Source of the DNA: Desulfobacterales bacterium
GTDB lineage: Bacteria; Desulfobacterota; Desulfobacteria; Desulfobacterales; Desulfosalsimonadaceae
Direction of reading: 5' to 3'
Length of the DNA: 39,243 nucleotides
Assembly (NCBI GenBank): GCA_018334555.1
Contig: JAGXLR010000007.1
Coordinates: forward strand, 1-39,243
Made by a program: the position numbers and the translations under genes. This document shows positions 23,755-30,684 of this stretch, piece after piece. Positions within the stretch are counted from its first letter, which is position 1. The number at the start of each line of letters is the position of its first letter. Below the pieces are notes generated by a model. That model saw only the letters and a program-made list of their open reading frames with translations, searched no databases and was not told the DNA's origin.

Positions 23755-25458
23755 ATGTCTATGAACGTAGTGGTCATTGGTGCCGTTGCCGTCGGTTCCA
23801 AGGCGGCGTGCCGATTCAAGCGGCTGCAGCAGGATGCCCGTGTGACCCTGATTGATGCGGATGAATACATTTCCTATGGGGGCTGCGGCATACCCTACTA
23901 TATTTCCGGTGATGTCAGCGAGGAATCCCAGCTTCGCTCCACAAGTTTCCATATGGTCAGGGATGAACGTTTTTTCAAGGAGGACAAGGGCATTGACGCC
24001 ATGCCCGGCACCCGGGCCTTAAAAATTGACCGGGAAAAAAAGACCGTCAGAATACGGAAAAATGATGGATCGGAGGAAGATTTGCCCTATGACAGGCTGG
24101 TGCTTGGCACGGGTACGCGGCCAAAGGAGCTCAACATCCCCGGCCTGGAACTGGACAATATATACCGGGTCGGCAACCTCCACGACGCCATGCGAATCAA
24201 GGAGATGATCGTCTCGGGTCAGGCTGAGCGGGCAGTCGTTATCGGCGGCGGCTTTATCGGCCTTGAGATGGCCGAAGCGCTTTCCGATATGTGGGAAATC
24301 GAAACTTCGGTGGTGGAGTATTGCGATCAGATTATGCCGGGTTTTGTCAGCCGGAATCTTGCCGGAATGGCTCAGAATCGTATGGAAGCGAACGGGGTCG
24401 CCTTTTATCTGTCTGAATCCGTCGAGGCGATCGAAGGCCGGGAAAAGGTTGAGGCCGTAAAAACCAGCCAGCGAACGATTGAGGCGGACCTTGTAATTAT
24501 GGCCGTGGGCGTCGAGCCCAACACCGAACTGGCTAAAGATGCGGGGCTTGAGGTTTCGCCCGCCGGCTTCCTGGTGGTCAACGACCATATGCAGACCACG
24601 GATCCGGATATTTATGCCGGCGGCGACTGCGTTCAGATACCCCATCTGGTTACCGGCAAACCCGGGTTCTTCCCCTTGGGCTCCATGGCCAATCGCGAGG
24701 GACGCGTCATAGGCACCAATTTAGCCGGAGGCGACGCCCGGTTCCCGGGTGGTGTCGGCAGTTTTGTCGTCAAAATCTTTGACGGTGCCTTAGCGGGCGC
24801 CGGGCTTACCATTGAAACCGCCCTCAAAGAAGGATACGATGCCGCCAGCGTCCAGGTGGCGCAATTCGATCGGGCGCATTTTTACCCGGAAAAAGAAATC
24901 ATCTATCTCGAACTCGTATTTGACAAATCAAATCGCCGCGTTTTGGGAATTCAGGGTTTCGGGCCCGTTGAAAGCGGGATGTTCGCACGGGTCAATGCTG
25001 TGGCGACGGTGCTTCAGTACAATCCCACGGTAGATGTCGTCAGCAACCTCGAGTTGGCCTATTCACCGCCGTTTGCCTCGGCCATGGATATCGTCAACGC
25101 CCTTGGCAACGCCGCTGAAAATTTTATTGAAGGCAGATTCAAGCTGCTTAAGCCTGAGGAATTCCAAGAATGCTGGATGGAAGGCAACAAAAACGGCTGC
25201 TATTTCCTTGACTGCCGTGCCAGTGCCGATGCCAAGCCGTTTGAGGAAAAATATCCGGATATTTGGAAGAGCATCCCCCATGATGAGCTCTATAGGCGCA
25301 TGGACGAAGTGCCGAGGGACAAGAAGCTGATCCTGCTCTGCAATACCGGCGTGCGCTCCTATGAAGCCCAGCTCGATTTGGCGGCTGAAGGCATCGAGGA
25401 TACCGTCAGCGTTGCGCCGGGGATGGCGGGATTAAAGGAATGTGGATTAAAATTCTAA
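23755..25458 (+). CDS. CoA-disulfide-reductase-like flavoprotein fused to rhodanese
   Basis: A 567-residue flavoprotein. The N-terminal FAD Rossmann fold (VVVIGAVAVGS) is followed by Cys44 in YGGCGIPYY, the redox Cys of CoA-disulfide reductase/NADH oxidase-type enzymes. A second NAD(P) Rossmann motif (AVVIGGGFIGLEMAEAL) and the FAD motif TDPDIYAGGDC follow. The last 100 residues are a rhodanese-like domain with Cys529 in LLCNTGVRSYEA. Similar fusions reduce CoA-persulfide or polysulfide, giving sulfide handling. AGGAGG seven bases before ATG 23755. It starts its own unit in the thiol-redox region. Confidence 0.92.
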   Translation: MSMNVVVIGAVAVGSKAACRFKRLQQDARVTLIDADEYISYGGCGIPYYISGDVSEESQLRSTSFHMVRDERFFKEDKGIDAMPGTRALKIDREKKTVRIRKNDGSEEDLPYDRLVLGTGTRPKELNIPGLELDNIYRVGNLHDAMRIKEMIVSGQAERAVVIGGGFIGLEMAEALSDMWEIETSVVEYCDQIMPGFVSRNLAGMAQNRMEANGVAFYLSESVEAIEGREKVEAVKTSQRTIEADLVIMAVGVEPNTELAKDAGLEVSPAGFLVVNDHMQTTDPDIYAGGDCVQIPHLVTGKPGFFPLGSMANREGRVIGTNLAGGDARFPGGVGSFVVKIFDGALAGAGLTIETALKEGYDAASVQVAQFDRAHFYPEKEIIYLELVFDKSNRRVLGIQGFGPVESGMFARVNAVATVLQYNPTVDVVSNLELAYSPPFASAMDIVNALGNAAENFIEGRFKLLKPEEFQECWMEGNKNGCYFLDCRASADAKPFEEKYPDIWKSIPHDELYRRMDEVPRDKKLILLCNTGVRSYEAQLDLAAEGIEDTVSVAPGMAGLKECGLKF

Positions 25459-26845: not shown

Positions 26846-27664
26846 ATGATTCAATTTCTGCCGAGCATCATCAAAGCCGCGGTCTTGGCCGGCAATGCGG
26901 CGCTGGAGGTCTACCAACAGAATTTCTCAGTTACTGAAAAACCGGATCACTCGCCTTTGACGCTGGCCGATACCCGGTCTCAAGCCATTATCAGCGAGGC
27001 GCTTAAATCCACCGACATCCCGGTTCTAAGCGAAGAAGGCGGGGATATTGCATTCAAGGAGCGGAAAGACTGGGAGAGGCTCTGGATCGTCGACCCCCTG
27101 GATGGTACCAAGGAGTTCGTCAAAAAAAATGGCGAGTTTACGATCAATATTGCGTTGGTGGAAAACCATGTGCCGGTTATGGGGGTTATCTACCTGCCGG
27201 TTTTTTCCAGGCTCTACTACGGGATTTATGACAAGGGCGCGTATCGTGCGGAGATTGTTGCCCCTGAGAACATCGAGAATATTGCGCCGGAGCAGATAAT
27301 GGAAACCGCCAACCCGCTGTCAATCAAAATCGACGCCTCAAGGATTTATACGATTGTGGCCAGCCGCTCCCATCTCACGCCGGCGGTCGAGGCGTTTGTG
27401 GAAGATAAAAAGCGGGATTACGGCCATGTGGAGTTTATCTCAGCCGGCAGCTCCTTAAAATTCTGTGAGGTGGCTGAAGGCAACGCGGATATTTATCCCC
27501 GGCTTGGGCCCACCATGGAATGGGATACGGCGGCCGGTCAGGTCATCGCCCAGGCGGCGGGCGCCCGCGTCTATCGCTATGATACGGGCGGGGATTTGCT
27601 ATACAACAAGGAGGATTTGAAGAATCCATGGTTTGTTGTGACCAACGGACGCGATGATGGGTAA
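26846..27664 (+). CDS. cysQ: 3'(2'),5'-bisphosphate nucleotidase CysQ
   Basis: A 272-residue member of the inositol-monophosphatase superfamily. Metal-binding motifs are LSEEGGDI (Glu pair), VDPLDGTKEFVKKNGEFTINIAL and the late EWDTAAGQVIAQAAG. It hydrolyses the PAP by-product (or PAPS) to AMP (or APS), recycling the nucleotide left after sulfotransfer. ATG 26846 follows AAGGTGA. It sits 12 bases ahead of the Sat/APS-kinase fusion, which fits PAPS metabolism rather than dissimilatory sulfate reduction, where APS is used directly. Confidence 0.95.
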   Translation: MIQFLPSIIKAAVLAGNAALEVYQQNFSVTEKPDHSPLTLADTRSQAIISEALKSTDIPVLSEEGGDIAFKERKDWERLWIVDPLDGTKEFVKKNGEFTINIALVENHVPVMGVIYLPVFSRLYYGIYDKGAYRAEIVAPENIENIAPEQIMETANPLSIKIDASRIYTIVASRSHLTPAVEAFVEDKKRDYGHVEFISAGSSLKFCEVAEGNADIYPRLGPTMEWDTAAGQVIAQAAGARVYRYDTGGDLLYNKEDLKNPWFVVTNGRDDG

Positions 27665-27676
27665 TTGGAAGGCGCT

Positions 27677-29389
27677 ATGAGTGACCCGATATTAGAGGCG
27701 CACGGCGGGCATCTCGTCGATTTGATGGTTGATGAAAAGCGGGCCGAACTGCTCAAGGAGATCGCCAATGATCTTCCGGATGTCATTTTAAACGACCGAC
27801 AGCTTTGCGACCTTGAACTTCTGGCCACTGGCGGATTCTCACCGCTGGAAGGGTTCATGGTGCGGGCCGATTATGAGGCGGTTCTTGACCGGATGCGCCT
27901 TCAGAGCCAGATTTTGTGGCCGATTCCCATCTGTCTGGATGTCAATGACTCCGTGGCGTCCAATCTAGAGGCGGGCCAGTCGGTCGCCCTGCGGGATCCT
28001 GAGGGCTTTATGCTGGCCGTGATGCATGTTGAAGATATATGGCCCGTGGACCGTGAAAAGGAGGCGGACCGGGCCTATGAGACCCGTGATACAACCCATC
28101 CGGGCGTTGCCTACCTGTTTAATAAATCCGGCGACTACTATATCGGCGGGCGTCTGGAGGTAGTAAGCGTTCCGCTTCACTTCGATTTCAAGCAGCTCCG
28201 GATGACGCCGACGGAAGTCAGAAATATCTATGGCAAGCTTGGTTGGCAGCGGGTTGTGGGTTTTAAAACCCGGCATCCCCTTCATCGTCCGATGTTCGAG
28301 ATGACCACGAAGGCCATGCGGCAGGCCCGGGCCAATCTATTGCTGCTGCCGGTGGTGGGCATGACCCGGCCCGGAGACTTCGACCACTATACCCGGGTGC
28401 GCTGCTATCGATCCGTTGCCAAACACTACCCACCGGAAACCCATGTACTCTCTTTACTGCCACATGCGATGCGCCTTTCAGGACCAAGGGATGCGGTTTT
28501 AGACAGTATTATTGCCAGAAACTACGGGTGTAGCCACTTTATCGTCGGTCATGATCATGCCAGTCCTGGTCCTGATAGAAACGGCACGCCGTTTTACGAA
28601 CATGATCGGGCAAGACGCGTTGCCGCCGAATTTTGCAGTGAAATCGGGGTCGAAATCATGCCGTTCGAAGAAATGGTTTATCTGCCGTTTGAGGATGAGT
28701 ATCGATCCGTTGACCAGGTGGCCGAAGGAACAGAAACAATTTCTCTCACCGCCTCGGATATCCGTCAGCGGATCCGTGAGGGGCGACGGATCCCGGAATG
28801 GGCCACATTCCCGGAAGTCGTCGAAGAACTGCAGAAGGCCTATCCACCCCCGCGGCGTCAGGGATTTACGGTGTTTTTAACCGGCCTGTCCGGTGCCGGC
28901 AAATCGACCATCGCCAAGGTTATTTACTCTAAATTTCTTGAAATCGGCGACCGTCCGGTGACCCTTCTTGACGGGGACATCGTCCGCCGCAATCTCTCCA
29001 GTGAGCTCTCCTTTAGCAAAGAGCATCGGGATATCAATGTGCTGCGGATCGGATTCGTGGCCAGCGAGATCACAAAAAATCGGGGCATCGCTATATGTGC
29101 GCCGATTGCCCCCTATCAGTATACCCGTGATGAAATCCGGCGGGTGATCGAGGAATACGGCGGCTTCATCGAGGTCCACGTATCCACCCCGCTCGAGGAA
29201 TGTGAAAAGCGGGATCGCAAGGGGATGTATGCCAAGGCCCGGGCCGGCCTGATCAAAGGATTTACCGGTGTCGATGACCCCTATGAATCCCCCGCATCCC
29301 CGGAGATACGGCTTGATACGACCGATATGTCCCCGGTCGAGGCGGCCCAGGAAATTTTACTGTTTTTGGGCAAGAAAGGCTTTATTTGA
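27677..29389 (+). CDS. Sulfate adenylyltransferase-like / APS kinase fusion
   Basis: About 570 residues. Residues 1-380 are ATP sulfurylase-like (PUA-type start, then catalytic domain); 395-570 is an APS kinase with the P-loop GLSGAGKST (403-411), DGDIVRRNLS and ECEKRDRKGMYAKARAG. In the Sat domain the motif normally QTRNPxHRAHE reads KTRHPLHRPMFEM (197-209), so the Asn and second His are replaced by His200 and Met206, and GRDHAGPG reads GHDHASPG (291-298), losing the catalytic Arg. The kinase half looks intact. ATG 27677 follows GGAAGG. Between cysQ and a UDP-sugar dehydrogenase gene, suggesting PAPS supply for polysaccharide sulfation. Confidence 0.9.
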   Translation: MSDPILEAHGGHLVDLMVDEKRAELLKEIANDLPDVILNDRQLCDLELLATGGFSPLEGFMVRADYEAVLDRMRLQSQILWPIPICLDVNDSVASNLEAGQSVALRDPEGFMLAVMHVEDIWPVDREKEADRAYETRDTTHPGVAYLFNKSGDYYIGGRLEVVSVPLHFDFKQLRMTPTEVRNIYGKLGWQRVVGFKTRHPLHRPMFEMTTKAMRQARANLLLLPVVGMTRPGDFDHYTRVRCYRSVAKHYPPETHVLSLLPHAMRLSGPRDAVLDSIIARNYGCSHFIVGHDHASPGPDRNGTPFYEHDRARRVAAEFCSEIGVEIMPFEEMVYLPFEDEYRSVDQVAEGTETISLTASDIRQRIREGRRIPEWATFPEVVEELQKAYPPPRRQGFTVFLTGLSGAGKSTIAKVIYSKFLEIGDRPVTLLDGDIVRRNLSSELSFSKEHRDINVLRIGFVASEITKNRGIAICAPIAPYQYTRDEIRRVIEEYGGFIEVHVSTPLEECEKRDRKGMYAKARAGLIKGFTGVDDPYESPASPEIRLDTTDMSPVEAAQEILLFLGKKGFI

Positions 29390-29391
29390 AA

Positions 29392-30684
29392 ATGGACAAA
29401 CAGGCGACGCAGATTGCGGTAATCGGGCTCGGCTATGTCGGGCTGCCGGTGGCCGTGACATTCGGCCGGCAGTATCGCACCATCGGATATGATTTGAAGG
29501 AAAAACTGATTGAGCGTTATAAAGAATATGTCGATCCGGCTGGTGAGCTTACGGGCGAGGAGATGAAGGCAGCGGTGCGGCTGGAATATACGGCCGACCC
29601 GCGGCGAATTCATGAAGCGGACGTGATTATTGTGGCCGTTCCGACACCGATTGATGAGGCCCGCCAACCGGATCTCAAACCGCTGATGGGGGCGTCTGAA
29701 ACCACCGGCCGTTACATGAAAAAGGGGGCCGTGGTGGTTTTCGAGTCTACCGTTTACCCAGGAACCACCGAAGATGTCTGCGTCCCCATACTTGAACGGA
29801 TGTCCGGGTTCGCCTGGAAGACGGATTTTCACGTCGGTTATTCCCCGGAGCGGATCAATCCCGGCGATAAAGGTCATAGGCTCGAGAATATACTTAAAAT
29901 CGTCTCCGGTGATGATGAGGCCACCCTGAATTTGCTGGCAGAGCTTTACGGATCCATCATTACGGCCGGTATATACCCTGTCGCCTGCATCAAAGAGGCG
30001 GAAGCCGCCAAGGTGATCGAGAACACCCAGCGGGATTTGAATATCGCCTTGATGAATGAACTGGCGGTGATATTTGATAAATTGGGGATTGATACCACGA
30101 ATGTGCTGCAGGCGGCATCGACCAAGTGGAATTTTCTTCCGTTTCGTCCCGGCCTGGTCGGCGGCCACTGCATCGGCGTAGATCCGTACTACCTGACCTT
30201 CAAGGCGGAAACCTCCGGGTATCATCCCGAAGTCATCCTTGCCGGCCGCCGGATCAACGATAATATGGGAAAATATATCGCCGAGAAAACTGTAAAGCTG
30301 ATGACGCGGATTCGCGGCAATATAAAAAAATCGAAAGTGGCCATACTGGGGCTTACATTTAAGGAAGACTGTGCTGATTTGAGAAATACAGGCGTAACCG
30401 GCATTATTGAAGAACTTTTGGCCTACGGCATTACGCCTTTGGTCCATGATCCGCTTGCGGATGCAAAAGAGGCCCTGTCTGTGTACGGGATCAGTCTTGC
30501 GCCATGGGAATCCTTGAAAGATATGGACGCGGTGATCCTGGCGGTGGGCCATCAATTCTACAAGGAAATGCCCATCCAGGAATACGTGAACCTATTGAAT
30601 TCCGAAGGCTGCATCATCGATGTCAAATCCATTTTCGACCCCAACGCGGCGGCCAAAACCGGCGTCCAGTTCTGGCGGCTATGA
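29392..30684 (+). CDS. Nucleotide-sugar dehydrogenase (UDP-GlcNAc/UDP-glucose type)
   Basis: About 430 residues. N-terminal NAD-binding motif VIGLGYVGLPVAVTFG; then VAVPTPID, ESTVYPGTTE, SPERINPGD; the central helical domain; and the catalytic Cys in GLVGGHCIGVDPYY. The C-terminal UDP-binding domain has ILGLTFKEDCADLRNTG. This matches the TviB/WbpO-like branch that oxidises UDP-N-acetylhexosamines to uronates, though UDP-glucose is possible. The start overlaps the end of the Sat/kinase gene region: TTG 29386 overlaps its stop and ATG 29392 follows, so translation is coupled. It would feed surface polysaccharide synthesis. Confidence 0.94.
   Translation: MDKQATQIAVIGLGYVGLPVAVTFGRQYRTIGYDLKEKLIERYKEYVDPAGELTGEEMKAAVRLEYTADPRRIHEADVIIVAVPTPIDEARQPDLKPLMGASETTGRYMKKGAVVVFESTVYPGTTEDVCVPILERMSGFAWKTDFHVGYSPERINPGDKGHRLENILKIVSGDDEATLNLLAELYGSIITAGIYPVACIKEAEAAKVIENTQRDLNIALMNELAVIFDKLGIDTTNVLQAASTKWNFLPFRPGLVGGHCIGVDPYYLTFKAETSGYHPEVILAGRRINDNMGKYIAEKTVKLMTRIRGNIKKSKVAILGLTFKEDCADLRNTGVTGIIEELLAYGITPLVHDPLADAKEALSVYGISLAPWESLKDMDAVILAVGHQFYKEMPIQEYVNLLNSEGCIIDVKSIFDPNAAAKTGVQFWRL

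Follow-up and report, generated by a model that had tools for sequence, protein, structure and literature searches.

The window, a stretch of 39,243 nucleotides from a Desulfobacterales bacterium, carries on its forward strand a tight trio of genes (26846-30684) coding for CysQ, for a fusion of an ATP-sulfurylase (Sat)-like domain to an APS kinase, and for a TviB-like nucleotide-sugar dehydrogenase (Table 1). Only 12 bases separate the end of cysQ from the ATG of the fusion gene, and the dehydrogenase gene starts at the stop codon of the fusion, overlapping or abutting it. A TTG at 27665 appears in the list of open reading frames as an alternative start of the fusion gene but is probably not the true one. 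Pfam recognizes PF14306, PF01747 and PF01583, in that order, in the fusion protein (hereafter the window protein).

Table 1. Features of the fusion gene and its flanking genes in the window. Amino acid positions of Pfam domains in the window protein are counted from the Ser encoded at 27680.
Feature	Position	Strand	Remarks
cysQ, 3'(2'),5'-bisphosphate nucleotidase	26846..27664	+	TIGR01331 above cut-off; directly upstream of the fusion
Sat-like/APS-kinase fusion gene	27677..29389	+	570 aa; ATG at 27677; GGAAGG just 5'
N-terminal PUA-like subdomain of the Sat-like half	27695..28168	+	PF14306 (PUA_2), aa 6-163
ATP-sulfurylase-like (adenylyltransferase) subdomain, predicted to be catalytically dead	28193..28837	+	PF01747, aa 172-386; residue comparison
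Degenerate QxRNPxHxxH motif KTRHPLHRPMFEM	28265..28303	+	Q195K, N198H, H204M (yeast numbering)
Degenerate GRDHA motif GHDHASPG	28547..28570	+	R290H (yeast numbering)
APS kinase domain, motifs intact	28859..29386	+	PF01583 (aa 394-546)
Kinase P-loop GLSGAGKST	28883..28909	+
Nucleotide-sugar dehydrogenase, closest to Vi polysaccharide TviB	29386..30684	+	TIGR03026 above cut-off

A preliminary description of this locus had proposed that the Sat-like half has lost the equivalents of yeast Asn198, His204 and Arg290 while the kinase is intact. Read from the base sequence, both sulfurylase motifs and the P-loop lie where they had been placed, and gap-free alignments with the yeast, Penicillium and Aquifex sulfurylases, in which KTRHPLHRPMFEM stands opposite QTRNPMHRAHREL and GHDHASPG opposite GRDHAGPG, bear out N198H, H204M and R290H relative to yeast Met3. 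A fourth change that had escaped that list, Q195K, affects the sulfate-binding glutamine, and the full set in yeast numbering is Q195K, N198H, A203P, H204M, R205F, and R290H. Four of the eight core residues are lost (the Gln, the Asn, the second His of HxxH, and the Arg of GRD); Arg197, His201, Arg202, Asp232, Asp291, and His292 are retained. The kinase was described correctly as well: the window protein has GLSGAGKST, LDGDIVRR, ICAPIAPY, DRKG, and KGFTGVDDPYE. An alignment shift that would bring back the canonical residues is ruled out, both motifs being aligned without gaps. Sequencing or assembly error is likewise ruled out: a 92% identical homologue (L002) has the same four changes, which must then be biological, and related losses occur across 108 sequences.

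What these residues do is well documented in active enzymes. In canonical sulfurylase structures, APS is held at its sulfate by the QxRN Gln and Arg, at its α-phosphate by the Thr, the Asn and the backbone of the Arg, and at its ribose by the GRDH-loop His. The Asn also belongs, together with the two HxxH histidines and the SGTxxR Arg, to the pyrophosphate or transition-state site (PMC3779200). In human PAPSS1, replacement of either HxxH His by Ala abolished ATP-sulfurylase activity (PMC11697783).

The comparison was extended to 80 full-length homologues from genome contigs, nearly all labelled Desulfobacterales, Desulfobacteraceae or deltaproteobacteria, and to 42 further fusions taken from related whole genomes. 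After removal of duplicates, the alignment comprised 108 fusions (that of the window included), 29 Desulfobacterales Sats and reference sequences, to which phylum-wide sequences were added later. His204 is missing from all 108 Desulfobacterales fusions, where it is replaced by Gln (90), Leu (11), Glu (4), Met (2), or Thr (1), and is present in 43 of 43 canonical sulfurylases, 42 of which read QRNHRH/GRDHA and one GRDAA. Retention of the other positions is uneven: Arg290 persists in 28 fusions, Asn198 in 63, Arg197 in 82, and Gln195 in 83. None of the 108 combines all eight core residues, and much of the pocket is nevertheless kept in the family (Thr196, His201, Arg202, Asp232, and His292). The kinase motifs, on the other hand, are near-invariant among 124 fusions, with the P-loop G-L-[SP]-x-[AS]-G-K-S-T in every one and ICAPIAPY in 119. 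Lys195, His198 and Met204 are common to the window protein and L002, whereas Gln195, Asn198 and Gln204 are found in L119, from the same genus, and in L003. The loss of His204 is therefore old, and Q195K, N198H and Met204 were added recently in the subclade of the window protein.

The preliminary description had suggested a phylogeny of Sat/APSK fusions with these positions aligned, and such a tree groups the window protein with an enzyme of Thiobacillus denitrificans (Tbd_0210; PDB 3CR8). In the maximum-likelihood tree of the Sat domain, 3CR8 is sister to the Desulfobacterales fusions (support 0.98), and Aquifex, the fungal enzymes and standalone Sats fall outside this clade. 3CR8 is a hexameric APS kinase with the same order of domains, Sat-like followed by APS kinase, and about 40% identity to the window protein in a structural alignment. 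It too has lost the second His of HxxH, which is Gln there as it most commonly is in the Desulfobacterales fusions, and it shares with the window protein changed Asn198 and Arg290 and an intact kinase. The T. denitrificans enzyme is described as having the same make-up, an inactive Sat-like domain joined to a kinase, with this domain proposed to hold the hexamer together (PMC13213808). The hexamer is that of the T. denitrificans enzyme; the window protein was modelled as a monomer. Sequence, motifs and tree all place the window protein in the T. denitrificans type, although 3CR8 is the more eroded of the two: the GxxKxxD loop and about 25 residues around yeast positions 128-152 are missing from it and present in the window protein. 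No active close homologue with the same substitutions was found, and the one characterized protein of the same clade is reported to be inactive.

A second precedent for an APS kinase with an inactive Sat-like domain comes from Entamoeba histolytica. EhAPSK (23vk/23vl) carries a non-functional Sat-like domain N-terminal to an active APS kinase, and deletion or point mutation of that domain lowered the kcat of the kinase 20- to 100-fold. The domain contacts the partner kinase and in this way increases kcat, but the authors warn that the deletion protein aggregates (PMC13213808). EhAPSK differs from the window protein in being a dimer whose Sat-like part is far more diverged, such that only aa 21-126 align. 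The Tyr of its Glu90-Tyr133 contact appears, by way of Aquifex Tyr142, to correspond to Phe168 of the window protein. Among solved structures, the best sequence match is the bifunctional Sat/APS kinase of Aquifex aeolicus (PDB 2GKS), which has the same domain order but keeps the canonical QTRNPMHRVH and GRDHA and branches outside the degenerate clade. The fungal sulfurylases (Penicillium 1I2D, yeast 1G8F) share the two-domain fold and represent the mirror case, with an active Sat half and a dead kinase-like half, which in Penicillium is regulatory. In the literature available for searching, no relevant account of such fusions in Desulfobacterales turned up. The T. denitrificans oddity proves to be the normal state of Sat-APSK fusions across the Desulfobacterales, and the window protein is of note chiefly because the type is so widespread and because it is probably misannotated.

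Most Desulfobacterales genomes examined have such a fusion beside a separate Sat. Among 60 relatives, 43 genomes have a verified fusion (G017, whose frame is split, was omitted), and 41 of these have another Sat match, as do 13 of 13 further fusion genomes from across the phylum. The two exceptions are G050 (560 contigs) and the window's own draft genome (G000, 265 contigs), in which another Sat was sought and none was found. In G001, of the same genus, sat is flanked on one side by a gene for a 274-aa-type protein and on the other, beyond one intervening gene, by a qmoC-like gene. The orthologues of these flanks in the window's genome (C209:306-1124 and C121:221-1390) are both situated at contig starts, and the start of sat is not among the 305 bases left over on C209. 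With a contig end next to each syntenic flank, there is a strong circumstantial case that the sat gene of this genome probably lies in an assembly gap; its true absence was judged unlikely, the contigs breaking at both expected flanks (C209:1-306, C121:1-221). CysDN as a source of APS and CysH as a consumer of PAPS were rejected for this genome, where there is no match to PF01507. Two aprA genes are present in the same genome.

The surroundings of the fusion gene offer a likely destination for PAPS. CysQ clears the PAP that remains once PAPS is used, and in 21 of the 81 loci inspected cysQ is the immediate same-strand neighbor of the fusion. Genes for nucleotide-sugar enzymes recur downstream of the fusion across loci, and the trio of the window suggests synthesis of a sulfated surface polysaccharide. 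Elsewhere in the genome, three Sulfotransfer_3 genes occur on C8, C117, and C43 (L205-L207), those on C8 and C117 beside glycosyltransferase genes, and their products are likely users of PAPS. Most likely, PAPS would serve to sulfate surface glycans. Further upstream in the window (23755-25458) lies a gene for a pyridine nucleotide-disulfide oxidoreductase whose C-terminal stretch looks rhodanese-like by eye; in the window's family, such a gene is often located upstream of the fusion at a distance of three genes.

The Sat-like half is maintained under strong purifying selection, as seen from the low dN/dS between the window protein and L002: dN is 0.046 and dS 0.77 in the Sat catalytic part, 0.064 and 0.69 in the PUA-like part, and 0.015 and 0.50 in the kinase, and other close pairs give a similar picture. 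An AlphaFold model of the window protein (42 sequences, monomer) reached a pLDDT of 87.4 and a pTM of 0.74, with low-confidence stretches in the kinase at 439-447 and 529-531, and matches 1i2d, 1m8p, 2gks and 3cr8 along the whole length of the two-domain fold. The pocket itself is not set apart: excess conservation as a sign of ligand binding was not significant, 18 pocket positions having a mean majority frequency of 0.78 against 0.72 for random positions of the catalytic subdomain (P = 0.13), and among the residues that are invariant in canonical enzymes, those of the pocket have no advantage in retention over the others (0.68 vs. 0.76). A fold that is held while its active site is not specially guarded favors a scaffold over an enzyme.

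From these comparisons, we infer that the window protein is very probably a monofunctional APS kinase whose catalytically dead Sat-like domain is kept as an oligomerization or regulatory scaffold. The C-terminal P-loop kinase would convert APS and ATP to PAPS, and the Sat-like domain, with His204, Asn198, Gln195, and Arg290 replaced, would be unable to join ATP and sulfate. By analogy with what is reported for T. denitrificans and Entamoeba, that domain would hold the oligomer and probably tune the kinase. APS would be supplied by the separate Sat of dissimilatory sulfate metabolism, and PAPS would be spent by sulfotransferases, with the neighboring CysQ disposing of the resulting PAP. The lesser erosion of the fusions compared to 3CR8, in particular the retained GxxKxxD loop and much of the pocket, and the draft genome in which a separate Sat was not found count against this interpretation. 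The preliminary description had left the Sat-like domain as inactive, altered in specificity, or regulatory; the first and last of these are strengthened by the family-wide disappearance of a histidine whose replacement abolishes activity in PAPSS1 (PMC11697783), and the second loses ground.

Among the alternatives, the one that fares best, albeit still improbable, is that the catalytically dead domain binds APS (or sulfate or a nucleotide) and acts as a ligand-responsive regulator or holds APS for the kinase. Thr196 and His292, which elsewhere contact the α-phosphate and the ribose of APS (PMC3779200), are kept in 107 of 108 fusions, the universally lost His204 sits on the pyrophosphate side, and the inactive kinase domain of the Penicillium sulfurylase, which serves as an allosteric site, provides a mirror precedent (PMC13213808). 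However, the sulfate contacts Gln195 and Arg197 are each missing from roughly one fusion in four, Gln195 being Lys in the window protein, and no statistical excess of pocket conservation accompanies the two retained residues. An APS-binding module through which the kinase could detect or take up APS made by the dissimilatory pathway is similarly doubtful; if it did exist, it would divide sulfate between respiration and sulfation.

It is distinctly less probable that the Sat-like domain still makes APS through a rewired site, for example with His198 or His290 replacing the lost groups, and that the enzyme is truly bifunctional. Six pocket residues do persist in the window protein (Arg197, His201, Arg202, Asp232, Asp291, and His292), its own draft genome yielded no other Sat, and its score against NF004040, the NCBI equivalog model of the PRK05537 “bifunctional” family, is 832 bits for a cut-off of 669. 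Yet that name requires a functional sulfurylase site, and all three of its motifs (QxRN, HxxH, and GRD) are broken in the window protein; the “bifunctional” database label is probably wrong here. Moreover, His204 is lost in every member of the family, the sister enzyme 3CR8 is reported to be inactive, and relatives possess a separate Sat. Replacements at 195, 197, 198, and 290 form about 60 combinations among relatives and differ even within the genus (Gln/Asn/Gln vs. Lys/His/Met at 195/198/204), which leaves no stable rewired site. As the NCBI model names these fusions bifunctional, gene-based surveys of sulfate metabolism in which sat is the marker would include a copy that is probably dead.

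A changed specificity, with the domain adenylylating or cleaving another substrate, is more improbable again: in its favor, the domain evolves under purifying selection and preserves the nucleotidyltransferase fold along with several ligand-side residues, but the pocket substitutions are scattered without a new consensus, pocket positions show no excess conservation, and the drift of the catalytic positions among many residues speaks against any one new specificity. Ongoing pseudogenization, in which a Sat half devoid of any role would be decaying, could draw on the scattered catalytic residues and on the recent additions of Q195K, N198H and M204 to an older loss of His204, but is the least credible reading and is largely refuted by purifying selection (dN/dS of about 0.06 over the Sat half) and intact frames (full-length and open in 80 of 80 homologues), and a length and domain architecture that are constant across the order also stand against it.

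Degeneration of the sulfurylase site is not restricted to the 3CR8 clade. In a second group (L166, L167, L169, L170, L175, and L177), His204 is kept and other core residues are lost, with motifs such as HNAHKA paired with TPNHADPF or HCAHKE paired with SADHGDPF; the sulfurylase site was apparently lost independently here. L154, a member of the 108-fusion set, branches with this group. In two loci, L162 (G198:C54) and L163 (G218:C26), the fusion lies within an open frame of 837 to over 1060 aa, whose N-terminal extension of 265-490 aa has no Pfam match and is either real or merely reflects the lack of an upstream stop. Near the base of the tree stands L161 (G245:C103), with QTRNPMHRAHQE/GRNHADPG; this fusion is the only Sat found in genome G245 and keeps QTRNPMHRAH and GR, an almost canonical site in which D291N is the single change among the core positions examined. 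A standalone Sat is present in G162, a genome from the same family whose fusion has the wrecked motif HTLDTMHRAEQA (L173, G162:C18), and the two genomes offer a natural comparison for how an enzyme half becomes a scaffold.
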